The translations under genes were made by a program, and so were the position numbers. The notes under the pieces are model-generated. The model made no database searches. It had not been told where the DNA came from and saw only the letters and a program-made list of their open reading frames with translations. Below are positions 4,333 to 62,695 of a stretch of DNA of 64,000 bases, in pieces; position 1 is the stretch's first letter; the number at the start of each line of letters is the position of its first letter. Source of the stretch: Syncephalis fuscata (lineage: Eukaryota > Zoopagomycota > Zoopagomycetes > Zoopagales > Piptocephalidaceae); NCBI GenBank assembly GCA_025786725.1, contig JAHLTZ010000010.1:186001-250000 (forward strand), read 5' to 3'.

Positions 4333-5726
4333 TCAGCAATATTGCCACCAATTGATGCTTGAAATATGTGTATGTTACTATCTGCAAAAAATCACCTTTA
4401 TTTAATTAATAAAAGATACACATATGATTATATTGTAATACAGACTAAGTAATTAAAATATAAAGTATCATAAGCTTATCGAATAGTTGTATAGTGATTT
4501 ATAGTAAATTAAGTAAGCAACAATGAAGCTATATACCCCAGTATACTTGCCATTATATTTGATTTAATTTTAGCTGTTTGTTATTTAAAGCATTTTGAAT
4601 GGTGTATTATAAATAAATAGCTATATAACATTAGTATTTTACAAGTAAATAAACATCACGGCGCAGCTGCAGCAATTGAATCATAGCGTGCCAATACTCT
4701 ATTTAAACAAATGTTGATTAATGGTAAAGCTCGTTATTTCCTATATTTATTTAAAAAACAAGCTGTCAAGTGCCTCTAGAAAACTACCATAGTTTTAGAA
4801 TACACTAACTCTCTGAGCGGATCATCTCTGAGCTTTATCCAACCGTATTTCCGTTGCGTTCTTTTAGTGCTGTAAAACCAAGTTATAATTTCGAATTGTA
4901 ATCTTTTATCAAATCTATTGAAAATTCCAAAACTTAACGATTGATAAAATTAATTTTCGTAGAAGCTCTTTTTTTGGCATAATATAATCGAAGCTAAAAA
5001 GTATGGTTTGTAGTTATTTTTTTAATAAAGCAAATTTCTAACATTATAATTAACACAAATATCAATAAATAGTAATAGGCTTTGCTTACTTCCAAGATTC
5101 GTACAAGCGTACCATCCATTTTCTTTTAGAAAATCTAGTCCTAATCATAGTTTAGTTTATAATATATAAACAATCCAAACTTGTACCTGTTCCAATTCTT
5201 TTCCATAAACGAGTTATACGATCTAGGTCCTAAAGCCACGCACTAATCAAATAGTTAAAGTAGTCCCTATTATGTGAAAGCCATAGCCATTAAATTTGTC
5301 GTACCTTCCAAAGTTTTTAGAAACAATACTATATGTCTCTTCATATTTTACTTGTGGCAAAACATAGTACTTTTTTTCAAGATTATGCGTAAGTTTTTAA
5401 GTACCACAATGTAAAAATCATGGTGGATTTATCGTAAATATAACTGTGTCAAGGTTTAGTCGTTGAATAAATGTTGTACTTTCTATGGAGCTATTAAGTG
5501 AGAAAGGTATGCTGTGATGATTAGACAAATAAATCTGCTGAAAATGCAGATATTTATAGTAAAGTATATTATGCGATGGTTTATGTATTTGCTATGTGAT
5601 TGGACAAATACGATGTACATGTTTTTGTATAAAAACGTGAAACGGGCCCATAGAAATAAACCATAAGCAACAAATTCTCGTTATTTTAATATGAGATCTG
5701 AAAATGTAAGATAGTTTTAAAATAGC
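4333..5726. other. Intergenic AT-rich stretch without recognisable genes
   Basis: About 1.4 kb between the RCC1-like gene and the 1.15-kb repeat. Only short ORFs without family resemblance or codon bias occur. An (AT)n microsatellite lies at about 5741-5755, just inside the left edge of the repeat. Confidence 0.6.
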
Positions 5727-35528: not shown

Positions 35529-36982
35529 ATGAGCATTATCGACGAATTGCCATTAGACAGCAGTCCATTTTTATTCAAAAAGGATTTGCGAGCATTTTCA
35601 GCTAATGGCGCTAAAGCTTCGTCGTCGAACGATGGACTGGCGGCCGAAGGTTGTGGTAAGGTAGTATCGTCGATTAAATACATAAAAGTATTTGATTTCG
35701 ATAACACACTTTTTCGGTCACCTTTGCCAAGTCCCCATCTCTGGCACAACAACTTGATAGGCAAGCTTATGTCCCCAGAGGTTGGATGGTTCAAAAATAT
35801 AAAAACGCTTTCAGAGCCATATGTTGTGTGCAAAGAGCGCACAGATGAATCATCTGCGACTGCTAGCAATCAAACGTCGTGGTTTTCTTCCAAAATAGTA
35901 AGCTGTGTTCATTGATTAAATAATATGATGGGTATTAAATACAGCTTCAATTTTTTAATTAGCTTCAAGAGGCGCGCGATGCAATTGCTGCTCCCGATAC
36001 ATGTGCCATACTACTTACCGGAAGATCTCGTGACATTTATTATTTTCGGATTAAGGAGCTGTTAATAGGACAAGATCTACATTTTGATGCAATAATTCTT
36101 CGTGAATATCACTCTTTATTGCCATCGACGATGCAGTTTAAGCAATATGTAATACGGTATTTATTAGAATTATTAAAATGTGCGCGCGAAGTAACGATAT
36201 GGGAGGATCGTAATCAGCATGTTCGACAATTCCAAAACTACATGGCTACTTTAGAGAAAAGTGGCCGTTTGGATAAAACGCTAGTAGTCCAGGTTAAGCC
36301 ATTTTTCTGCTACATGAAAGCGCATTTAGAACTACAACTGGTACACGAGCTCATTGTCATTTATAATACCCAAATACCAAAAGAGAAGATAGAACTGGTA
36401 AACCGAATTAAATCTGGCAAATTAAAATTGGGCCGTGTAGCATTACAACACCTACGCAAATACTGTAATATTCAAACTGAACACCAACTCAATGACTATG
36501 GTGTGTGGATTCCAAGTTCAATAGTTTTAAACATAGATGTAGAGCAAGCCAACGGCTATTACTCACAACAAGTACAATTATTTCTTGTTAATTTTAAATG
36601 TATAAATAATACAATAGTTGCCATATTAGCTACAGAGAATATTAGCGGTAATATTGAGTATCCACTTGGGAAACATAAATCACCAATGCGTTTAACCGAG
36701 ACGTGTCATAAAGCCAGTTTAGATACTTTTCCAATGGCATTCTTTGGTTCACTAGAGCTAACTTGCGTGAAAGATATTAAGAAGTGTGAGCCCTTCAAAT
36801 CGTACTCTACTTCGATATACGCCAATATGTCACGTATTATTCAACAATATCATCCTGACCTCCAAGACACAGAATTAACGCAAATGTGCTGTCGAGTAAA
36901 GCAAGTAATAGTTAAAAACAATATTCAAGAAATAGAAGAATTAAAGCATATTGTAAAATCCATGAAGTTTAATCAAGGGTGA
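35529..36982 (+). CDS. HAD-like 'Swiss Army Knife RNA repair' domain protein (copy A)
   Basis: Two exons, 35529-35897 and 35963-36982; 462 aa. The HAD motif I is clear: IKVFDFDNTLFRSPLPSPHLW, followed by the conserved GWF segment. Motif II/III equivalents are ILLTGRSRDIYYFRIKELL and VTIWEDRNQHVRQF. This fits the fungal HAD domain associated with Swiss Army Knife RNA repair proteins (HAD_SAK_1). The catalytic DxD nucleophile pair is present, so phosphatase-type chemistry is plausible; the substrate is unknown. The C-terminal ~250 residues show no recognised domain. It is divergent from Spc24 and duplicated at 54684-56134. Confidence 0.75.
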
Positions 36983-39180
36983 TAGTATACACAATAGAAA
37001 TGGCACAGCTAGGCTATTGTGGCAATGCTTTACTGTTGTGACGACTAGCAACTTAATGGCTACCGTCTTGTTTACGCTTACTTCTATCACCCAAGCATTA
37101 GTGGCTACTAATTAATTGCTTAATATAACATGAACCGATGTTATTATAAAATAAACAATAAATGATTTTCCTTTTAATTATTGATTACCATAGTTAAGCT
37201 TTTAATAACTAAATAACATTTGTAACTAAAGCAGAAAAAAGAATACAGCACCAAAGATATAGATGTGTATTATAATTCCAATAAAGCTAGTGTTTTATAG
37301 TATATACTGTTGTTAATAGAATTGAACTTTGTCCATAAGGTTGCTCATATGTCAGTAGATAACAAGTATTTACTGGTTATGTCCTTGTATAAATGTTTGT
37401 TTATGATTGTTAGTACTAGTATTTAGTATATTGTTGCTGTGGCTATTTATATGTTATCATTGGCATATTGTTTAATTACATAGTGGACTTTATGGATCAA
37501 TTTCATGGTAGATAATTACGCGACCATAATACTGTAATTCTGTGCCGTAATAACATTTTACCATTTTTGTTGTCAAGTGAATTAAATAGATGACCGACAT
37601 TATAACAATAAAACTGATATCTGATTAGTACAATATCTGATACTGAATTGCTACGCATTTACACATAATATAAACTGTATTTTATAGTTGGAAATAATGT
37701 CAATACTACTTCACTATTTACTTTAGTTGTGTATGCTTTTATGAAACAAATAGCTGACATAAATGATTCTGAGTGCGCACTTCAATCTAGTAGATGGGTA
37801 TTTTCTTTTCTCCTGTTTGATGACTCAAAACAATATGAAATCATTGCTTATAATACGTAGCTATATTAATCCTCATTTTAACTGACCAATGCCCTTATGA
37901 ATAGACATTTGTTGACAATATCCTCCACTATTGTCTAATTCCCCCTCATTCATTTACCCTCTCCTCAAATACTCTCCTTATACAATCCAAAGCATAACAG
38001 CATGTGTGTATTTGCAGGTTTATTAAACGCTATGTACAATGTTTTGTTTTCGTGCACTACTTTCGTTTAGCGTTATTGTTCTAGCTGCATCATCAATAGT
38101 TAGATCATTGATAAACTCAATCTAACATGGTATGACAATAATAATTTGCTATAAGCTAAACCAGTAAGCCTTTGGGCTGCTAATTGTTTTTCCATTGGCT
38201 TCTGCTTTGGCTTGTTCTTCTACATTCTATCTTGCTTAACTTGGCAGGATTGGTTTCAGAAATGTAAGCAGCACTTAGGCCTTGGATGATCATCAATTGA
38301 TATGCAATCCGCCGTCATTATGCACCTAAAATTGCTGGTACTTGGTTAGTACTTTTTTTGTGTCTATTCTAGTGTCTGCATATTGTATTGCGTGTGGTTT
38401 AGCCGATCCAATCTAGTTTACAACTGAAAAGTGATGACGAAAATGACATGTTGAAACGTTTCATTGCTCAAAATGCTGTGATGCATTATGGTACAAACAA
38501 TACTTATTGTATAGTTGCTTTCAGTTGATTTAGATTAACCGCCATTTGAATGATGGTGGTTGCACAGCATGTAGCATGATATGCCTGGATGTAATATATT
38601 TGTGAATTCAAAGCAATGATTACCCCATAATAGTGAGCATAGTGTCAAATGAAATGCACGCATGTACCAATCAACACACTTTATAATCTAGAAATTACGG
38701 CTGACCTATGTATAGCAGTAAAAACCTGTATAGAATACCAGTTTGATACATTAAACTTGTTTTTGCATCAGTGTTGTGTGCTATTCTGTATGCATGTAGA
38801 TATTGAAGACCGAGTCGATAGAAATGACAGCAAATACATCGTTATCGTTTTTATAAAGCAAGCAATATACTTGTTTTTACCAAATAGTTAGACCGTATAA
38901 CAAATAATACAGACTAATGTATCTATTTGTGTCGCATATGTATTGGATTATTACCATTACCGTTACTTATGCAAATGACTGGCAGATTGAAATAAAGACC
39001 GTGCAAGTTAAAATCAAGACTGGTCAGGTTGAAATCAAGGCGAGAAGCATCCTATTACACCATGAAACTATTGGTACATGCACGCCGCAAACCATTAGTT
39101 CGATTGATTTATTGGTTCATATTACACATCAATGGTGTACCTCATACTACAGTATACTAGCATCCCAGTATAGTCATAAA
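36983..39180. other. Long upstream region of microexon gene A
   Basis: About 2.2 kb without a confident gene. It contains the first ~515-bp direct repeat (37036-37550), a 28-codon ORF with a signal-peptide-like sequence at 38039-38125, and an 80-codon ORF at 38649-38891. Both ORFs are also present in copy B, but the blocks are so alike that conservation proves little. Confidence 0.4.
37036..37550. repeat. ~515-bp direct repeat R1
   Basis: Begins TTGTGACGAC and ends GTGCCGTAA. Repeated directly at 43202-43715 (R2), 56188-56702 (R3) and 62696-63210 (R4). R1 and R2 flank the microexon gene A with its upstream region. Confidence 0.85.
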
Positions 39181-39188
39181 TATAAATA
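39181..39188 (+). promoter_or_regulatory. TATA box of microexon gene A
   Basis: TATAAATA 145 bp upstream of the ATG at 39326, followed by a C/T-rich stretch. The same box at the same distance occurs in copy B (58573-58580). Confidence 0.55.
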
Positions 39189-39325
39189 GCCCACAAAATA
39201 TGCACAATCAATTGCAATATCATTATCACACTCTACTTCTTGCTATAAACGCACTACTCTCCACTTTATACCAACCGCACTCTACTATTCCTTTTATTTG
39301 TTTGTCTTAACAAATCGATATCACC

Positions 39326-42300
39326 ATGAAGCTTTCCATTGCTGTCGTTTGCACCATTGTCGTGGCTATCATGGCCAGTACAGCCATGGTGGATGCTAAT
39401 CCAGCCATAGTTCGTCGTGATGGTATGTTGCAATAATAGACATGTCACAGAATCATGCTTATTAACAGTATTTTTAAATAATAATTATAATAGCCAGTAG
39501 GTTGTGCTGCGTATTAACTGACTATTCGCTAACTATATCACGTATTGTGTATCGATAACTTAACATTAATAGTTGGTGGGTTGTATTACATATCAATAGA
39601 GCATCTACTAATTATGTACCATGTACTGTGCCCATTAATAACTTAATATTAGAGGATTGTAAGTTATATGTATATTAACTGATCACTTACTAATTGCATG
39701 TTATACACCATGTTTATCAATGACTTCATATCAATAGGTCGTAGGTTGTATTGTATATCAATTGACTACTTACCAATTACATGCTATGCACCCTTTGCAT
39801 CAACAACTTAATACTAATAGGTCGTAAGTAATATTGTATATTGCTAACTTATAAATTAATTTCCATTTATTATTTGTATTAAAAACCTTATTAATAGGAG
39901 GTAGGTGGTACTCTATATTAACTGATCACTCACTAATCACATGTTATACACCATGTTTATCAATGGCTTCATATCAATAGGCCGTAAGTTATATTGTATA
40001 TCAATTGATTACTCACTAATTATACGTTATGCACCATGTGTATTAACAACTTAATATTAATAGGCGGTAAGTGGTATTGTATATTGACTGGCTTATAAAT
40101 TAATTGTATAACATATATTATGTATATCAACAACCTAATACCATAGCGGGTAAGTTGTATTGTGTATTACTTGACTATGTGCTAATTCTATGCCATGCGC
40201 TACGTATATCAACAACTTGATACTAATAGCATGTAAGTTATTGTATATTAATTAAACATTGGCTAATTATATATTATGTGCTGCGTATATCAACAACTAA
40301 TGCTAATAGGTTGTAAGTTGTATTGTATGTTGATGGCGTATAAACTAATTATATATCATGTATTGCGCACATTGATAACTTAATTCCATAGTTAGTAAGT
40401 TGTATTATATATTAATTGAGTATTAACTAATTATATATCATGTACTATGTGTATCAATAACTTAATATAATAGAAAGTAAGTGGCATTTTATATAAGCTA
40501 ATTACTCACTGATTATATTCATGTACTGTGTGTATCAATTAATATTAATAGAATGTAAGTTATATTATATATTAACTGATTATACATTAACTATGTTATT
40601 TACTGATTATACTAATTATAATTTTAATAGGTCGTAAGTGATAGTATATATTAACTGGCTATAAAATAACTATACTATTTACTAATGGTATTAATTATTT
40701 AATATTAATAGAATGTAAGTAGTATTGTATATTAACTGACACGCATTAACTATAATATTTACTGGTGGTATTAATTATTTAATATCAATAGCTAGTAAGT
40801 AGTATTGTATATTAATTGACATGCATTATGTTATTTACTGATTGTACCAATTATTCAATATTAATAGCCTGTAAGTTTTATTTTATATTAACTATGTTAT
40901 TTACTGCTTATATTAATTATTTAATATTAATAGGGCGTAAGTTGTATTGTATATTGATTGACTATATATTAACTATGTTATTTACTGATTATACCAATTA
41001 TTTAATATTAATAGGGGGTAAGTAACATTTTATATTAATTGACTATTAACTATGTTATTTACTAATTATATTAATTATTTAATATCAATAGATTGTAAGT
41101 AGTATTGTATATTAACTGACATACATTATGTTATTTACTGATTGTACCAATTATTTAATATTAATAGCGGGTAAGTAGTATTGTATATTAACTGACATAC
41201 ATTAATTATGTTATTTACTGGTGGTATTAATTATTTAATATTAATAGCCTGTAAGTTGTATTGTATATTAACTATGTTATTTACTAATTATACTAATTAC
41301 TCAATTTTAATAGCCCGTAAGTAATATTTTATATTAACTAACTATGCATTAACTATGCTATTTACTGCTTATATTAATTATTAATTATTTAATATTAATA
41401 GTGGGTAAGTTGTATTGTATATTAACTGTTAATTACTGATTATACTAATTGTTTAATATTAATAGAATGTAAGTTGTATTGTATATTAACTGATTATACA
41501 TTAACTATGTTATTTACTGGTGATATTAATTACTTAATATTGATAGATCGTAAGTTGTATTATATAGCAACTAACTATGCATTAACTATGTTATTTACCG
41601 ACTATACTAATTATTTAATATTAATAGGATGTAAGTTGTATTGTATATTAACTATTTTATTTACTGATTATATTAATTATTAATTATTTAATATTAATAG
41701 CTTGTAAGTTTTATTGTATATTAACTATGTTATTTACTGATTGTACCAATTATTTAATATTAATAGGCAGTAAGTAGTATTGTATATTAATTGACATACA
41801 TTAACTATGTTATTTACTGGTTATACCAATTATTTAATATTAATAGGCAGTAAGTTTTATTGTATATTAACTATGTTATTTACTGATTGTACAATTATTT
41901 AATATTAATAGTGGGTAAGTGTGTTGTATATTAATGACATACATGACTATGTTATTTACTGATTGTACCAATTATTTAATTTAATAGATTGTAAGTAGTA
42001 TTATATAATGACCATTACTATTTACTGATTATACCAATTATTTAATGCTAATAGGCGGTAAGTTTATTATATATTAATTAATTACTAATTGTATTAATTA
42101 TTTAATATTAATAGCTTGTAAGTTGTATTGTATATCAACTATGTTATTTACTGCTTATACTAATTATTTAATATTAATAGCTTGTAAGTTGTATTGTATA
42201 TTAATTATGTTATTTAATAATTATACTAATTATTTAATATTAATAGATTGTAAGCAGTATTGTATATCAACTAACTATACATTAACTATGTTATTTACTG

Positions 42301-42702
42301 GTTATACTAATTATTTAATATTAATAGGGCGTAAGTTGTATTGTGTATTAACTGACTATACATTAACCATGCTATTTACTGGTGATATTAATTATTTAAT
42401 ACTAATAGGCAGTAAGTAGTATTTTATATTAACTGACATACATTAACTATGTTATTTACCACTATACCAATATTCAATATTAATAGTATGTAAGTAGTAT
42501 TGTATATTAACTGACTGCATTAATTATACTATTTACTGATTATACTAATTATTTAATACTAATAGGCTGTAAGTAGCACTGTATATTGATGGCTTATATA
42601 TTAACCATGTGTAATATCTTTATTTGTAAATACAGCTCCATTTCCACTTTGAAAAAATTAACATTAATAGTGCAATCAAATCACTATTCCAATACACTTT
42701 AG
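39326..42702 (+). CDS. Secreted Cys-rich peptide encoded by 41 consecutive single-codon microexons (copy A)
   Basis: Exon 1 (39326-39422) has a good start context and encodes a ~24-residue signal peptide, then a short propeptide ending in Arg-Arg. It ends one base into a codon at G/GTATGT. Then come 41 microexons, each between ...TAATAG (or similar) and GTAAGT (rarely GTAGGT or GTGGGT). Forty are 3 nt and one is 6 nt (39653-39658). Examples: 39494-39496, 39573-39575, 40064-40066, 40868-40870, 41402-41404, 42115-42117, 42566-42568. The last exon is 42671-42702 (TAG 42700-42702). All 42 introns are phase 1. The spliced frame has no stop and gives 84 aa with six Cys spaced C-x6-C-x3-C-x14-C-x3-C-x6-C. 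Coding is 255 of 3377 bp. No family is recognised; a secreted effector-like or structural peptide is inference. An alternative last acceptor at 42702 also keeps phase. Confidence 0.82.
39423..42670 (+). repeat. Tandem intron/codon array A
   Basis: 42 introns of 57-102 nt. From about the 14th onward they share a consensus: GTAAGTNGTATTGTATATTA at the start, ATGTTATTTACTG in the middle, TACTAAT or TACCAAT 15-20 nt before the end, and TTTAATATTAATAG at the end. Two length classes (about 63 and 77 nt) differ by loss of a segment between two ATTAACT motifs. The 3-nt pieces between them vary freely: 64 of 126 microexon bases are G or C, against very AT-rich introns. Confidence 0.9.
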
Positions 42703-43201
42703 GTATATATTCGGTGAAAAGCAAGACCATTTGACAACTACGCCGTCCTGTCTATCATATATCAAGTTTTGGCCAATGCTCCGGTTTATCCAGTTTTAAT
42801 CAATGGAATCATTATTTTATCAACAAGCTTGCATTTAGCTGTTTTTATTCAACTGTGCAGCATATAGTAATAAACTATGGTTTCATCTTAACTGTATACA
42901 ATCAAATTGCTATATCAATAATCATGTTTTATTTGCATCCAATAATGGCAATTATTGATCAAATAGTTAAATTAACAAAAGACATGCACAATTATATTTA
43001 TTAGCCATAAGCATAGGATGGTATGAATATGGTAATGTTAAATATGGATATTGTAATGATAAATGTTGGCAATAAAGTTGGCTGTGCTTATTTTTAAATA
43101 TACCATGGATAGTAACAAATCTATCACTATCATATAAGAAAATGATATTGTACCAATATTGATATAGAATAAGCATCGATTGCTAACAACTTGGCACTAC
43201 A
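42703..43201. other. 3' flank of microexon gene A
   Basis: About 500 bp conserved in copy B; probable 3' UTR and spacer up to repeat R2. No other gene seen. Confidence 0.4.
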
Positions 43202-43715
43202 TTGTGACGACAGCAACTTAATGGCTACCGTCTTGTTTACGCTTACTTCTATCATCCAAGCATTAGTGGCTACTAATTAATTGCTTAATATAACATGAAC
43301 CGATGTTATTATAAAATAAACAATAAATGATTTTCCTTTTAATTATTGATTACCATAGTTAAACTTTTAATAACTAAATAACATTTGTAACTAAAGCAGA
43401 AAAAAGAATACAGCACCAAAGATATAGATGTGTATTATAATTCCAATAAAGCTAGTGTTTTATAGTATATACTGTTGTTAATAGAATTGAACTTTGTCCA
43501 TAAGGTTGCTTATATGTCAGTAGATAACAAGTATTTACTGGTTATGTCCTTGTATAAATGTTTGTTTATGATTGTTAGTACTAGTATTTAGTATATTGTT
43601 GCTGTGGCTATTTATATGTTATCATTGGCATATTGTTTAATTACATAGTGGACTTTATGGATCAATTTCATGGTAGATAATTACGCGACCATAATACTGT
43701 AATTCGGTGCCGTAA
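43202..43715. repeat. ~515-bp direct repeat R2
   Basis: Direct copy of R1 located downstream of the microexon gene, with a handful of differences. It abuts the fold-back element. Confidence 0.85.
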
Positions 43716-43797
43716 AAATGTAATATTTATATATTTTTAATAACTATGGCCATTATAAAGATGTAATGTGTTTGTTTCTAACAATCAAGCTATTCCA

Positions 43798-44685
43798 AAA
43801 AATGATTTCAACATAACTAGGTAGTAAATGTTAATATGGCATTACAAATCATGTATAACTTTACATATAATAAAGCAAATCACTTAATATTGTGCACAAG
43901 TATACACGCGACATATAGATAGCTACTGGCAAATTACACTGCGGCTGTATTGCGTGATGATGTAATAGTTGTGATAATAGGCTAGTAAATGTGTAAAATG
44001 GCCATTTTTTACCAACCATGAACTATATAACTAAACGATATCAAAATAATTGCCAAATTCGTGTTCTCCATGCTTAGTTATACAGATTGGTATGATTTAT
44101 AGAACGCCGATTTTTGCAAAAAAAGTTCGCCAAAAATGCAACTTGCATGTTATTAATTAACGAAAAGTGCTTAAACTTTGTGACTTTAATACTTTTAATG
44201 TTAAGAATTAAATTTGGGCTAGAGTAAATCTAAAGCGCTCTATAATACTAGACAATTATAATAGCAAGCTAGTATGCAGAAATACCAATGTAAAGTGGCA
44301 ATATATGTTTTATATACATACATGTATCTAATTATACGTAAATTGCATTTTTGGCAAACTTTTTTTGCAAAAACCGGCGTTCTATAAATCATACCAATCT
44401 GTATAACTAAGCATGAAAACACGAATCCGGCAATTATTTTGATATCGTTTAGTTATATAGTTCATGGTTGGTAAAAAATGGCCATTTTACACATTTACTA
44501 GCCTATTATCACAACTATTACATCATCACGCAATACAGCCGCAGTGTAATTTGCTAGTGGCTATCTATATGTCGCGTGTATACTTGTGCACAATATCAAG
44601 TGATTTGCTTTATTATATGTAAAGTTATACATGATTTGTAACGCCATATTAACATTTACTACCTAGTTATGTTGAAATCATTTTT
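43798..44685. mobile_element. Fold-back (MITE-like) element with ~344-bp inverted arms
   Basis: The left arm 43798-44141 is the near-perfect reverse complement of the right arm 44343-44685, around a ~200-bp unique centre. The ends read AAAAATGATTTCAAC and its complement. There is no coding capacity. Such structures are typical of non-autonomous fold-back DNA transposons, or arise by inverted duplication. A second copy starts at 63293 and is cut by the window end. Confidence 0.75.
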
Positions 44686-54683: not shown

Positions 54684-56134
54684 ATGAGCATTATCACGAA
54701 TTGCCATTAGACAGCAGTCCATTTTTATTCAAAAAGGATTTGCGAGCATTTTCAGCTAATGGCGCTAAAGCTTCGTCGTCGAACGATGGACTGCGGCCGA
54801 AGGTTGTGGTAAGGTAGTATCGTCGATTAAATACATAAAAGTATTTGATTTCGATAACACACTTTTTCGGTCACCTTTGCCAAGTCCCCATCTCTGGCAC
54901 AACAACTTGATAGGCAAGCTTATGTCCCCAGAGGTTGGATGGTTCAAAAATATAAAAACGCTTTCAGAGCCATATGTTGTGTGCAAAGAGCGCACAGATG
55001 AATCATCTGCGACTGCTAGCAATCAAACGTCGTGGTTTTCTTCCAAAATAGTAAGCTGTGTTCATTGATTAAATAATATGATGGGTATTAAATACAGCTT
55101 CAATTTTTTAATTAGCTTCAAGAGGCGCGCGATGCAATTGCTGCTCCCGATACATGTGCCATACTACTTACCGGAAGATCTCGTGACATTTATTATTTTC
55201 GGATTAAGGAGCTGTTAATAGGACAAGATCTACATTTTGATGCAATAATTCTTCGTGAATATCACTCTTTATTGCCATCGACGATGCAGTTTAAGCAATA
55301 TGTAATACGGTATTTATTAGAATTATTAAAATGTGCGCGCGAAGTAACGATATGGGAGGATCGTAATCAGCATGTTCGACAATTCCAAAACTACATGGCT
55401 ACTTTAGAGAAAAGTGGCCGTTTGGATAAAACGCTAGTAGTCCAGGTTAAGCCATTTTTCTGCTACATGAAAGCGCATTTAGAACTACAACTGGTACACG
55501 AGCTCATTGTCATTTATAATACCCAAATACCAAAAGAGAAGATAGAACTGGTAAACCGAATTAAATCTGGCAAATTAAAATTGGGCCGTTTAGCATTACA
55601 ATGCCTACGCGAATACTGTAATATTCAAACTGAACACCAACTCAATGACTATGGTGTGTGGATTCCAAGTTCAATAGTTTTAAACATAGATGTAGAGCAA
55701 GCCAACGGCTATTACTCACAACAAGTACAATTATTTCTTGTTAATTTTAAATGTATAAATAATACAATAGTTGCCATATTAGCTACAAGAATATTAGCGG
55801 TAATATTGAGTATCCACTTGGGAAACATAAATCACCAATGCGTTTAACCGAGACGTGTCATAAAGCCAGTTTAGATACTTTTCCAATGGCATTCTTTGGT
55901 TCACTAGAGCTAACTTGCGTGAAAGATATTAAGAAGTGTGAGCCCTTCAAATCGTACTCTACTTCGATATACGCCAATATGTCACGTATTATTCAACAAT
56001 ATCATCCTGACCTCCAAGACACAGAATTAACGCAAATGTGCTGTCGAGTAAATCAAGTAATAGTTAAAAACAATATTCAAGAAATAGAAGAATTAAAGCA
56101 TATTGTAAAATCCATGAAGTTTAATCAAGGGTGA
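54684..56134 (+). pseudogene. HAD-like 'Swiss Army Knife' domain gene, copy B, three single-base losses
   Basis: Collinear with 35529-36982 but one base is missing at ~54695, ~54793 and ~55787, each breaking the frame. The remaining sequence is nearly identical, including the HAD nucleophile motif and the intron. It is either a fresh pseudogene or an intact gene with base-level sequence errors; the second is favoured because the same kind of loss hits essential genes elsewhere in the window. Confidence 0.6.
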
Positions 56135-58572
56135 TAGTATACACAATAGAAATGGCACAGCTAGGCTATTGTGGCAATGCTTTACTGTTGTGACGACTAG
56201 CAACTTAATGGCTACCGTCTTGTTTACGCTTACTTCTATCACCCAAGCATTAGTGGCTACTAATTAATTGCTTAATATAACATGAACCGATGTTATTATA
56301 AAATAAACAATAAATGATTTTCCTTTTAATTATTGATTACCATAGTTAAGCTTTTAATAACTAAATAAAATTTGTAACTAAAGCAGAAAAAAGAATACAG
56401 CACCAAAGATATAGATGTGTATTATAATTCCAATAAAGCTAGTGTTTTATAGTATATACTGTTGTTAATAGAATTGAACTTTGTCCATAAGGTTGCTTAT
56501 ATGTCAGTAGATAACAAGTATTTACTGGTTATGTCCTTGTATAAATGTTTGTTTATGATTGTTAGTACTAGTATTTAGTATATTGTTGATGTGACTATTT
56601 ATATGTTATCATTGGCATATTGTTTAATTACATAGTGGACTTTATGGATCAATTTCATGGTAGATAATTACGCGACCATAATACTGTAATTCTGTGCCGT
56701 AATAACATTTTACCATTTTTGTTGTCAAGTGAATTAAATAGATGACCGACATTATAACAATAAAACTGATATCTGATTAGTACAATATCTGATACTGAAT
56801 TGCTACGCATTTACACATAATATAAACTGTATTTTATAGTTGGAAATAATGTCAATACTACTTCACTATTTACTTTAGTTGTATATGCTTTTATGAAACA
56901 AATAGCTGACATAAATGATTCTGAGTGCGCACTTCAATCTAGTAGATGGGTATTTTCTTTTCTCCTGTTTGATGACTCAAAACAATATGAAATCATTGCT
57001 TATAATACGTAGCTATATTAATCCTCATTTTAACTGACCAATGCCCTTATGAATAGACATTTGTTGACAATATCCTCCACTATTGTCTAATTCCCCCTCA
57101 TTCATTTACCCTCTCCTCAAATACTCCCCTTATACAATCCAAAGCATAGCAGCATGTGTGTATTTGCAGGTTTATTAAACGCTATGTACAATGTTTTGTT
57201 TTCGTGCACTACTTTCGTTTAGCGTTATTGTTCTAGCTGCATCATCAATAGTTAGATCATTGATAAACTCAATCTAACATGGTATGACAATAATAATTTG
57301 CTATAAGCTAAACCAGTAAGCCTTTGGGCTGCTAATTGTTTTTCCATTGGCTTCTGCTTTGGCTTGTTCTTCTACATTCTATCTTGCTTAACTTGGCAGG
57401 ATTGGTTTCAGAAATGTAAGCAGCACTTAGGCCTTGGATGATCATCAATTGATATGCAATCCGCCGTCATTATGCACCTAAAATTGCTGGTACTTGGTTA
57501 GTACTTTTTTTGTGTCTATTCTAGTGTCTGCATATTGTATTGCGTGTGGTTTAGCCGATCCAATCTAGTTTACAACTGAAAAGTGATGACGAAAATGACA
57601 TGTCGAAACGTTTCATTGCTCAAAATGCTGTGATGCATTATGGTACAAACAATACTTATTGTATAGTTGCTTTCAGTTGATTTAGATTAACCGCCATTTG
57701 AATGATGGTGGTTGCACAGCATGTAGCATGATATGCCTGGATGTAATATATTTGTGAATTCAAAGCAATGATTACCCCATAATAGTGAGCATAGTGTCAA
57801 ATGAAATGCACGCATGTACCAATCAACACACTTTATAATCTAGAAATTACGGCTGACCTATGTATAGCAGTAAAAACCTGTATAGAATACCAGTTTGATA
57901 CATTAAACTTGTTTTTGCATCAGTGTTGTGTGCTATTCTGTATGCATGTAGATATTGAAGACCGAGTCGATAGAAATGACAGCAAATACATCGTTATCGT
58001 TTTTATAAAGCAAGCAATATACTTGTTTTTACCAAATAGTTAGACCGTATAACAAATAATACAGACTAATGTATCTATTTGTGTCGCATATGTATTGGAT
58101 TATTACCATTACCGTTACTTATGCAAATGACTGGCAGATTGAAATAAAGACTGGACAGTTTATGCACTATTTCGTATGCATGTAAATATTGAGAACTGGA
58201 TCGGTAGAAATAGCAGCAAATACATCATTATTGTTTTCACAAAGCCAAACAATATACTTGTTTTTACCAAATAGTTAGACTGTATAACAAAGAATACAAA
58301 CTAATATGCCTATTTCTATCACATATGTACTGGATTATTACCATTACTATGCTGCTATTTGTGCAAATGACTGGCAGATTGGAGTAAAGACCGTGCAAGT
58401 TAAAATCAAGACTGGTCAGGTTTAAATCAAGACGAGAAGCATCCTATTACACCATGAAACTATTGGTACATGCACGCCGCAAACCATTAGTTCGATTGAT
58501 TTATTGGTTCATATTACACATCAATGGTGTACCTCATACTACAGTATACTAGCATCCCAGTATAGCCATAAG
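56135..58572. other. Long upstream region of microexon gene B
   Basis: Matches 36983-39180. It contains direct repeat R3 (56188-56702) and a diverged tandem duplication: about 57940-58150 is repeated at ~58170-58389, where copy A has only one unit. No confident gene. Confidence 0.45.
56188..56702. repeat. ~515-bp direct repeat R3
   Basis: Equivalent of R1 in copy B; same ends. Confidence 0.85.
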
Positions 58573-58580
58573 TATAAATA
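58573..58580 (+). promoter_or_regulatory. TATA box of microexon gene B
   Basis: TATAAATA, 145 bp upstream of the ATG at 58718, as in copy A. Confidence 0.55.
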
Positions 58581-58717
58581 GCTCACAAAATATACATAAT
58601 CAATTGCAATATCATTATCACACTCTACTTCTTGCTATAAACGCACTACTCTCCACTTTATACCAACCGCACTCTACTATTCCTTTTATTTGTTTGTCTT
58701 AACAAATCGATATCACC

Positions 58718-61700
58718 ATGAAGCTTTCCATTGCTGTCGTTTGCAACATTGTCGTGGCTATCATGGCCAGTACAGCCATGGTGGATGCTAATCCAGCCAT
58801 AGTTCGTCGTGATGGTATGTTGCAATAATAGACATGTCACAGAATCATGCTTATTAACAGTATTTTTAAATAATAATTATAATAGCCAGTAGGTTGTGCT
58901 GCGTATTAACTGACTATTCGCTAACTATATCACGTATTGTGTATCGATAACTTAACATTAATAGTTGGTGGGTTGTATTACATATCAATAGAGCATCTAC
59001 TAATTATGTACCATGTACTGTGCCCATTAATAACTTAATATTAGAGGATTGTAAGTTATATGTATATTAACTGATCACTTACTAATTGCATGTTATACAC
59101 CATGTTTATCAATGACTTCATATCAATAGGTCGTAGGTTGTATTGTATATCAATTGACTACTTACCAATTACATGCTATGCACCCTTTGCATCAACAACT
59201 TAATACTAATAGGTCGTAAGTAATATTGTATATTGCTAACTTATAAATTAATTTCCATTTATTATTTGTATTAAAAACCTTATTAATAGGAGGTAGGTGG
59301 TACTCTATATTAACTGATCACTCACTAATCACATGTTATACACCATGTTTATCAATGGCTTCATATCAATAGGCCGTAAGTTATATTGTATATCAATTGA
59401 TTACTCACTAATTATACGTTATGCACCATGTGTATTAACAACTTAATATTAATAGGCGGTAAGTGGTATTGTATATTGACTGGCTTATAAATTAATTGTA
59501 TAACATATATTATGTATATCAACAACCTAATACCATAGCGGGTAAGTTGTATTGTGTATTACTTGACTATGTGCTAATTCTATGCCATGCGCTACGTATA
59601 TCAACAACTTGATACTAATAGCATGTAAGTTATTGTATATTAATTAAACATTGGCTAATTATATATTATGTGCTGCGTATATCAACAACTAATGCTAATA
59701 GGTTGTAAGTTGTATTGTATGTTGATGGCGTATAAACTAATTATATATCATGTATTGCGCACATTGATAACTTAATTCCATAGTTAGTAAGTTGTATTAT
59801 ATATTAATTGAGTATTAACTAATTATATATCATGTACTATGTGTATCAATAACTTAATATAATAGAAAGTAAGTGGCATTTTATATAAGCTAATTACTTA
59901 TTGATTATATTCATGTACTGTATGTATCAATTTAATATTAATAGAATGTAAGTTGTATTGTATATTAACTGATTATACATTAACTATGTTATTTACTGAT
60001 TATACTAATTATAATTTTAATAGGTCGTAAGTGATAGTATATATTAACTGGCTATAAAATAACTATACTATTTACTAATGGTATTAATTATTTAATATTA
60101 ATAGAATGTAAGTAGTATTGTATAGTAACTGACACGCATTAACTATACTCTTTACTGGTGGTATTAATTATTTAATATCAATAGCTAGTAAGTAGTATTG
60201 TATATTAATTGACATGCATTATGTTATTTACTAATTGTACCAATTATTCAATATTAATAGCCTGTAAGTTTTATTTTATATTAACTATGTTATTTACTGC
60301 TTATATTAATTATTTAATATTAATAGGGCGTAAGTTGTATTGTATATTGATTGACTATATATTAACTATGTTATTTACTAATTATACCAATTATTTAATA
60401 TTAATAGGGGGTAAGTAACGTTTTATATTAATTGACTATTAACTATGTTATTTACTAATTATATTAATTATTTAATATCAATAGATTGTAAGTAGTATTG
60501 TATATTAACTGACATACATTATGTTATTTACTGATTGTACCAATTATTTAATATTAATAGCGGGTAAGTAGTATTGTATATTAACTAACTATACATTAAC
60601 CATACTATTTACTGGTGGTATTAATTATTTAATATTAATAGCCTGTAAGTTGTATTGTATATTAACTATGTTATTTACTAATTATACTAATTACTCAATT
60701 TTAATAGCCCGTAAGTAATATTTTATATTAACTAACTATGCATTAACTATGCTATTTACTGCTTATATTAATTATTAATTATTTAATATTAATAGTGGGT
60801 AAGTTGTATTGTATATTAACTGTTATTTACTGATTATACTAATTGTTTAATATTAATAGAATGTAAGTTGTATTGTATATTAACTAACTATACATTAACC
60901 ATGCTATTTACTGGTGATATTAATTACTTAATATTGATAGATCGTAAGTTGTATTATATAGCAACTAACTATGCATTAACTATGTTATTTACCGACTATA
61001 CTAATTATTTAATATTAATAGGATGTAAGTTGTATTGTATATTAACTATTTTATTTACTAATTATATTAATTATTAATTATTTAATATTAATAGCTTGTA
61101 AGTTTTATTGTATATTAACTATGTTATTTACTGATTGTACCAATTATTTAATATTAATAGGCAGTAAGTAGTATTGTATATTAATTGACATACATTAACT
61201 ATGTTATTTACTGGTTATACCAATTATTTAATATTAATAGGCAGTAAGTTGTATTTTATATTAACTATGTTATTTACTGATTATATTAATTATTAATTAT
61301 TTAATATTAATAGCGGGTAGGTGTTATTGTATATTATTTAAATATACATTAACTATGTTATTTACTAATTATACCAATTATTTAATGTTAATAGAGTGTA
61401 AGTTGTATTATATATTGACCATGCTATTTACTGATTATACCAATTATTTAATGCTAATAGGCGGTAAGTTTATTATATATTAATTAATTGCTAATTGTAT
61501 TAATTATTTAATATTAATAGCTTGTAAGTTGTATTGTATATCAACTATGTTATTTACTGCTTATACTAATTATTTAATATTAATAGCTTGTAAGTTGTAT
61601 TGTATATTAATTATGTTATTTACTGATTATACTAATTATTTAATATTAATAGATTGTAAGCAGTATTGTATATCAACTAACTATACATTAACTATGTTAT

Positions 61701-62191
61701 TTACTGGTTATACTAATTATTTAATATTAATAGGGCGTAAGTTGTATTGTGTATTAACTGACTATACATTAACCATGCTATTTACTGGTGATATTAATTA
61801 TTTAATACTAATAGGCAGTAAGTAGTATTTTATATTAACTGACATACATTAACTATGTTATTTACCGACTATACCAATATTCAATATTAATAGTATGTAA
61901 GTAGTATTATATATTAACTGACTGCATTAATTATACTATTTACTGATTATACTAATTATTTAATGCTAATAGGCCGTAAGTAGTATTGTATATTAACTGA
62001 CTGCATTAATTATACTATTTACTGATTATACTAATTATTTAATGCTAATAGGCCGTAAGTAGCACTGTATATTGATGTCTTATATGTTAATTATATGACA
62101 TATAATATCTATTTGTAAATACAGCATAATCAATGGTTGCAAGACATTAGCATTAATAGTGCAATCAAATCACTATTCCAATACACTTTAG
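58718..62191 (+). CDS. Secreted Cys-rich peptide encoded by 42 consecutive microexons (copy B)
   Basis: Exon 1 is 58718-58814, followed by 42 microexons (41 of 3 nt, one of 6 nt) and last exon 62160-62191 (TAG 62189-62191); 85 aa. Same phase-1 logic, signal peptide, Arg-Arg site and six Cys in identical spacing. Differences from A: Thr to Asn at residue 10 of the signal peptide; the 32nd and 33rd microexons (61314-61316, 61395-61397) differ and change the two residues Met-Asp to Thr-Glu inside the second C-x3-C; the 41st (61973-61975) is a GC-rich triplet duplicated with its intron as the 42nd (62052-62054), adding one Arg just after the sixth Cys. No stop arises. This pattern is what a maintained coding sequence would show. 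Confidence 0.82.
58815..62159 (+). repeat. Tandem intron/codon array B
   Basis: 43 introns, collinear with array A for the first 31 units and again from the 34th. The introns before the last two microexons are near-identical to each other (one difference in about 76 nt), showing a very recent unit duplication. Unit 32 uses donor GTAGGT. Confidence 0.9.
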
Positions 62192-62695
62192 GTATATATT
62201 CGGTGAAAAGCAAGACCATTTGACAACTACGCCGTCCTGTCTATCCATATATCAAGTTTTGGCCAATGCTCCGGTTTATCCAGTTTTTAATTAATGGAAT
62301 CATTATTTTATCAACAAGCTTGCATTTAGCTGTTTTTATTCAACTGTGCAGGCATATAGTAATAGACTTGTGGTTTCATCTTAACTGTATACAATCAAAT
62401 TGCTATATCAATAACCATGTTTTATTTGCATCCAATAATGGCAATTATTGATCAAATAGTTAAATTAACAAAAGACATGCACAATTATATTTTATTAGCC
62501 ATAGGCATAGGATGGTATGAATATGGTAATGTTAAATATGGATATTGTAATGATAAATGTTGGCAATAAAGTTGGCTGTGCTTATTTTTAAATATACCAT
62601 GGATAGTAACAAATCTATCACTATCATATAAGAAAATGATATTGTACCAATATTGATATAGAATAAGCATCGATTGCTAACAACTTGGCACTACA
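62192..62695. other. 3' flank of microexon gene B
   Basis: Equivalent of 42703-43201 with several single-base insertions and deletions; no gene. Confidence 0.4.

Follow-up and report, generated by a model that had tools for sequence, protein, structure and literature searches.

Predicted splicing of secreted, cysteine-rich peptides from runs of one-codon exons in a gene family of Syncephalis fuscata

The gene w1, located in the analysed window (the whole 64,000-nt stretch of Syncephalis fuscata DNA), has the pattern of a gene built from one-codon exons, and our analysis confirms this observation. We consider it very probable that w1 belongs to a large family of secreted, Cys-rich prepropeptides, in which the mature part would be encoded by consecutive phase-1 exons with a length of 3 nt or, now and then, 6 nt. 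In the best explanation, one normal exon supplies the conserved signal peptide together with an RR at which the precursor would be processed; we take the RR to be a Kex2-type site. The parts of the gene and the region 5' of it are as follows.

39100-39325, plus strand: region 5' of w1, holding TATAAATAG; aligned between array genes and intronless paralogues
39326-39422, plus strand: exon 1 of w1, 97 nt, signal peptide and short pro-region ending RR (MKLSIAVVCTIVVAIMASTAMVDANPAIVRRD)
39494-42568, plus strand: array of 41 microexons with introns of 57-85 nt; the first microexon is 39494-39496 and the last 42566-42568
42636-42652, plus strand: probable terminal exon, CTCCATTTCCACTTTGA, with the stop TGA at 42650-42652
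42671-42702, plus strand: alternative terminal exon of the first-pass annotation, TGCAATCAAATCACT...TTTAG; more likely 3' UTR

Exon 1 closes one base into the next codon (phase 1) at the donor GTATGT, and each codon that spans a junction has its first base in one exon and its other two in the next. The first-pass annotation had described 41 single-codon exons whose phase-1 joining gives a stop-free frame. The frame is reproduced in our reparse, where w1 runs through 41 microexons to a terminal stop; 40 have 3 nt and one has 6 nt (AGGATT, 39653-39658). Introns occupy 92.8% of the gene, in agreement with the earlier figure of more than 92%. A splice-site motif said to occur 40 times does recur, with a lower count. 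TAATAG-N3-GTAAGT has 29 exact matches in 39326-42702, and the relaxed form ATAG-N3-GTAAG has 36, compared with a mean of 0.015 and a maximum of 1 in 200 mononucleotide shuffles; the remaining units have variant sites, for example CCATAG, CAATAG, GTAGGT and GTGGGT. The predicted product has 79 residues and ends with ...YWRICSPFPL-stop.

Introns of 57-102 nt had also been reported, with the frame ending at TAG 42702 after a 102-nt intron. The range of 57-85 nt holds before and between the microexons, but the last intron is most likely 67 nt long, ending at AAATACAG, and TGA 42650-42652 is the more probable stop. Of the 13 array genes compared, 11 share AAATACAG as the end of the final intron (L076 and L082 differ). 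After the acceptor, several arrays have AATAATCGATGG; intronless genes such as L034 have their stop and the next bases at the corresponding place. From this acceptor and this correspondence, w1 probably ends at 42652 and not at 42702; the latter is disfavoured because the sequence past its acceptor aligns after the stop codon of the intronless paralogues. When nine genes were re-read to the end, a stop was found within a few codons in all except L083, which has an earlier stop.

The window holds a near-identical second copy of the gene, w2, which spans 58718-62129 and lies 19.4 kb from w1.

58718-58814, plus strand: exon 1 of w2
58886-62054, plus strand: array of 42 microexons
62125-62129, plus strand: probable terminal exon, CATAA, which finishes the last codon and supplies the stop

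An extra GCC unit in w2 gives it one codon more than w1, and it probably ends with ...YWRICRP-stop at 62129. The two copies differ at 1/294 acceptor, 1/252 donor and 69/2549 intron-interior positions. The array gene is carried by a duplication covering about 35963-43000 and 55116-62500, with an offset of about 19.2-19.4 kb, which also carries an upstream ORF starting LQEARDAIAAPDTC (35963-36982, and a shorter copy at 55116-55847).

In the 28.95-Mb assembly, the motif TAATAG-N3-GTAAGT was counted 2,716 times (1,235 + 1,481) against 5 (1 + 4) for its reversed control, and paired motifs 692 + 772 times against 0. The counts for TATTAG-N6-GTAAGT and for the start of intron 1 (GTATGTTRCAATA) are 84 (control 12) and 76 (control 2), respectively, while a variant with 4-nt spacing is not above its control (14 versus 20). 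Since the exact 3-nt motif fits 222 of 358 microexons in 14 parsed arrays, the genome may, by rough extrapolation, hold about 4,380-4,400 microexon units. At least 150 relatives of w1 exon 1 are present (the best 150 of 317 candidates), and those among L009-L038 and L069-L086 were examined closely. With a parser that admitted lengths of 3, 6 and 9 nt only, 350 of the 371 parsed microexons have 3 nt and 21 have 6 nt. Array introns are near 78 nt, and arrays parsed to the end have 13-42 consecutive microexons. By sequence, these genes therefore have the long runs of short exons, each a multiple of 3 in length, that mark micro-exon genes; they also have a first exon encoding a signal peptide, as judged from sequence, within a secreted family of many paralogues.

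The 6-nt exons (39653-39658; units 3, 6, 9 and 10 of L069) are often preceded by TATTAG and not by TAATAG, as if the acceptor had been shifted 3 nt upstream. In assembly coordinates, where the window is G000:C2:186001-250000, mirror-image motif arrays are located at G000:C2:519736-522461 (minus strand) and 537395-540127 (plus strand) with no exon 1 match among the 150 relatives listed, and a second leader family is possible. The motif scan of viral contigs gave 0 matches. An array-like pattern was found in 24 prokaryotic stretches, many of them cyanobacterial; the three cyanobacterial stretches inspected (L089, L100 and L105) are apparent CRISPR repeats with CCCTAATAGGGAGTAAGTG, where a constant GGG replaces NNN, and their likeness to the arrays is coincidental.

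Evidence for the proposed joining comes from the order of the microexons. A phase-1 exon of 3 nt contributes two bases to one codon and a single base to the next, so a codon needs two neighbours to be joined. Among the 392 phase-1 codons of 15 arrays there is 1 stop, compared with 23.4 +/- 3.5 when the exon order is shuffled within genes, and there are 67 Cys codons compared with 34 +/- 4; neither the observed stop value nor the Cys value was reached in any of 5,000 shuffles. In phase 2 the same arrays have 40 stops and 21 Cys, and phase 0, although it too has few stops (2/392), is not Cys-rich (3). Stop avoidance and Cys enrichment were found together only with adjacent microexons in genomic order and in phase 1.

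The 15 arrays were chosen as distinct; some are partial, some share blocks (L019/L020 and L028/L069), and L077 and L082 were read only to the parser's stopping point. Near-copies and shorter reads (w2, L012, L014-L017, L032, L035 and L038) were omitted, as were arrays with fewer than 10 units parsed (L021, L022, L023, L027, L030, L031, L033, L070, L075, L078 and L086) and L081, where the parser started at the wrong donor. In this list L022, L023 and L030 are shorter reads of the L070, L075 and L078 loci, and L031 is a near-copy of L030. Eight of the arrays omitted for incomplete parsing were read separately as an outside set. Their adjacent junctions give 1/147 stops and 28 Cys, compared with 11/133 stops and 12 Cys when one exon is skipped. 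L021, L033 and L075 of these eight resemble the set members L018, L083 and L013, and the other five have 0/100 stops. The lone stop belongs to L033 and lies in phase after 'CDPFHPCTS', the same position as in its relative L083.

These counts bear on a reading in which the whole array is a single large intron, the outcome that the first-pass annotation had named as refuting its own, or else a satellite that codes for nothing, with the microexon pattern as a by-product of tandem repetition. Skipping the whole array does keep the frame, and the units can be recognised as a tandem repeat, their introns being on average 70.6% identical across arrays compared with 59.1% when shuffled. A discarded repeat, however, needs no avoidance of stops, and only 1 of 371 adjacent junction codons (0.3%) is a stop compared with 28 of 356 one step out; it also has no reason for Cys at the adjacent joins or for the Cys signature of the paralogues considered below. 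Because stop avoidance depends on the order and the Cys signature is that of the paralogues, we give this reading almost no credence. The microexons might instead be included or skipped freely, producing many peptide variants per gene, and skipping would be frame-neutral, since every microexon parsed has a length divisible by 3 within the lengths allowed to the parser. Against this, stops rise from 0.3% at adjacent junctions to 4.5-7.9% with skipping (28/356, 21/341, 21/326, 14/311 and 21/296 for one to five skipped exons), which indicates that in-order joining is maintained and makes free combination quite unlikely. Low-level skipping may still occur alongside in-order joining. Retention would introduce an in-frame stop for 317 of 386 introns. 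The phase-1 joining of the microexons that the first-pass annotation had put forward is thus favoured by the stops, by the Cys codons and by the paralogue signature.

Five genes in the same genome (L024, L026, L029, L034 and L036) are intronless: they have the same leader, and its frame stays open through a peptide with six Cys, for example ...RRDYDSCMFECRMGCSYPDYGMICKTVCDRECRRANP. By eye, the 300 nt upstream of L024, L026, L029 and L034 aligns with the array genes, TATAAATAG included, and the upstream region of L036 aligns well only close to the gene. On the other side, the query was 42600-43800, which starts inside the final w1 intron; parts of it (246-1,126 nt) match 22 of 24 array and leader-sharing sequences, the intronless ones included. 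L069 (array) and L036 (intronless) have an identical ANP-stop ending.

From the five intronless genes alone, though after the array peptides had been seen, we derived the signature C-x2/3-C-x3-C. It lies within eight residues of the RR in 11 of the 15 spliced arrays, compared with 0.08 +/- 0.29 for shuffled order and a maximum of 3 in 10,000 shuffles; the arrays that do not carry it are w1, L069, L083 and L085. The strict six-Cys spacing of the intronless genes fits 1 of the 15 arrays, several being partial and others off by at least one residue, and the spacing in w1 is 6-3-14-3-6. A profile HMM of the intronless peptides separated real from shuffled order poorly for several of 14 arrays. The real score was equalled by 208 of 300 shuffles for L085, 178 for L076, 152 for L080, 90 for L084, 61 for w1, 39 for L079 and at most 24 for each of the other eight. 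The profile came from a poor alignment of five short peptides and its outcome was mixed; the Cys signature test was used in its place. A tblastn search of the genome with two spliced mature peptides returned no contiguous copy, an empty result that is itself uninformative. In a tree of 28 rows, the intronless and array labels need 3 changes, 1 of which is forced by well-supported branches.

As to how such exons could be recognised, GTAAGT is found at 314 of the 371 microexon donors. Microexons ending in AG number 5/314 with GTAAGT and 4/57 with other donors (p = 0.035), and the higher share before the other donors is a weak sign of compensation. As few AG-ending microexons precede GTAAGT, recognition would have to rest on the intron. 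The introns of the AlaRS gene in the window, read by eye with one junction computed, have mixed donors (GTGAGG, GTAGGC, GTAATT and others), often with AG before them. Within the array introns, cryptic YAG was counted at 42/371 compared with 80.7 after dinucleotide shuffling (minimum 67 in 200 shuffles), and internal GTA[AG]G at 0 compared with 3.3 expected (shuffled minimum 0). YTRAY lies 8-40 nt upstream of the acceptor in 326 of 371 introns, a count that has no control set. One U1 snRNA match was found in the genome, with the canonical 5' end ATACTTACCTG. The arrays have an acceptor-N3-donor anatomy; recursive splicing would need each donor to act once the intron before it has gone.

We propose that the units would be spliced together by intron definition, in which the near-perfect GTAAGT donors of short introns can pair with U1 without the help of an exon. 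Splice sites 3 nt apart could hardly be bound simultaneously, and the introns would probably be removed one by one. Most simply this would proceed co-transcriptionally from 5' to 3', with the upstream exon growing by one codon at a time; we guess at this order for its simplicity, since it would keep the upstream exon at a normal length throughout. For a 1-nt exon in Arabidopsis, the available part of the report likewise argues for intron definition and for one intron at a time (PMC4674806). An exon of 3 nt leaves no room for exon definition and puts the acceptor and the donor within one spliceosome footprint. While a single such exon is a curiosity, runs of dozens throughout a large gene family would be a natural experiment. 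If the reading is true, it makes testable the smallest exon that intron definition can handle in series, the order in which adjacent introns leave, and a role for introns as recombination spacers through which a peptide could evolve one codon at a time.

The comparison of related arrays gives some indication of such turnover. Between the members of four divergent pairs, only 0-3 of the 97 positions in exon 1 are different, compared with about 10-20% of intron positions and 31-61% of microexon positions. The microexon and intron differences are 23/48 versus 136/1318 for L019-L020, 15/48 versus 117/1232 for L028-L016, 24/54 versus 263/1298 for L012-L013, and 31/51 versus 236/1219 for L018-L020. 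Exon 1 differences in other pairs reach 7/97 and 10/97. Accelerated point mutation of the kind known from conotoxins was considered for the microexons and rejected. Among units flanked on both sides by introns of at least 90% identity, little or no excess is left: the differences there are 2/18, 1/21, 0/111, 1/51 and 1/54 in the five of seven pairs that had qualifying units, with p = 0.017 for 2/18 alone. We do not claim diversifying selection at the point level, since the excess vanishes or shrinks beside such introns, and it probably reflects mostly unit replacement, shifting and breakpoints. For example, unit 12 is AGA in one and TGG in the other of L019-L020 after an identical intron, and the identity of the next intron drops to 0.78, a pattern that suggests a recombination breakpoint. 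The extra w2 unit is the sole case seen of a unit gain that fits tandem duplication. Recent duplication of neighbours was rejected as the main signal, as intron identity in w1 only passes from 0.751 between neighbours to 0.697 at distances of 10 or more. From these few cases we infer that intron recombination may edit the peptide by whole codons: homologous introns flank each codon, and recombination within them would add, remove or swap codons in frame.

Arrays L075, L077, L078, L027, L033, L081 and L086 carry inserts or damaged sites. Similar inserts of about 400 nt lie in an array intron of L075 (about 2.2-2.6 kb after the ATG) and in the second intron of L033, with a stretch that looks tRNA-like by eye and suggests a SINE. 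Longer inserts are found in L078 and L027, which are alike and lie in the intron after the first microexon, and in L077 after the last parsed microexon. Such inserts, together with the mutated first donor of L081 and the in-phase stop of L083 and L033, are what decaying pseudogenes would show if formerly spliced coding genes had lost their function. Decay does not account for splice sites that differ less than the intron interiors between w1 and w2, for stops as few as 1 in 392 codons in the 15 arrays and 1 in 147 junctions in the eight others, or for upstream regions that align across the paralogues, and we regard it as very improbable.

Aphid bicycle genes have microexon character, and we know of no runs of one-codon exons among them. 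They are described, in the accessible part of the source, as rapidly evolving families of putative effectors recognised by gene structure (PMC9168663), and the S. fuscata arrays resemble them as putative effector families defined in this way. The schistosome MEGs are, from the available sections of a report on them, secreted families of a parasite with a conserved signal peptide and mostly microexons divisible by 3; their exons are vastly of 15 bp (with the range given as 3-81 or 6-81), their introns reach about 5 kb, and they are hard for automatic annotation (PMC10526429). As far as that source goes, the arrays are like MEGs in their microexons, signal peptide and secretion, a likeness of architecture, and unlike them in that nearly all array exons are one codon, the introns are near 78 nt and the organism is a fungus. 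Ultra-small exons are known from the accessible parts of two other reports, namely 1-nt exons in Arabidopsis APC11 and Fusarium CYP621A and two 3-nt exons in Dactylellina lipS (PMC12940212, PMC5639578). According to these parts, such isolated exons are too small for exon definition, like the S. fuscata microexons, and CYP621A has an intronless relative that serves as a length marker, much like the intronless paralogues here. In these accounts of APC11, CYP621A and lipS, however, a gene has one or at most two such exons, compared with 13-42 in a row in the S. fuscata arrays parsed to the end. Introners or introner-like elements, in the portions of the literature available, are many similar introns in one genome (PMC9860276, PMC4457414). 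The array introns differ from what is described there, being known only as tandem arrays within one gene family.

None of 8 family proteins scored above the curated cut-off in Pfam, and the best match in a PDB sequence search had an E value of 0.64. AlphaFold2 predicted helices at residues 25-47 and 52-66 in an intronless member, with a mean pLDDT of 66.6 and a pTM of 0.32. Conotoxin-type precursors and alpha-hairpinin peptides have a conserved signal and pro-region and a variable Cys-rich mature peptide. The S. fuscata peptides are like them in the Cx3C pairs and in the weakly predicted helical hairpin of the intronless member; they are unlike the known ones in having no support from Pfam or PDB, and membership is not claimed. 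S. fuscata belongs to the Zoopagales, and Syncephalis species parasitise Mucorales. The signal peptide, the RR, the small Cys-rich mature part, the many paralogues and the parasitic habit together suggest that the products are secreted host-interaction or antimicrobial peptides, with the host fungus or competitors as possible targets.

With two spliced products as queries, the public proteins found share the leader and none has the spliced mature part; the matches came from Syncephalis fuscata only, as they did for the intronless member L026, which is 100% identical to a public protein under that species name. The absence of the microexon-encoded part suggests that standard annotation apparently misses such genes. 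We recognised no run of one-codon exons in the open-licence literature on microexons, small exons, intron gain and Syncephalis. On balance we lean slightly towards a new gene architecture of codon-resolution splicing, in which a peptide would be assembled codon by codon and intron recombination would shuffle the codons against a fungal host. The same leader precedes very different mature parts in P0008, P0009 and L071, and judging from these it may serve several types of secreted peptide.
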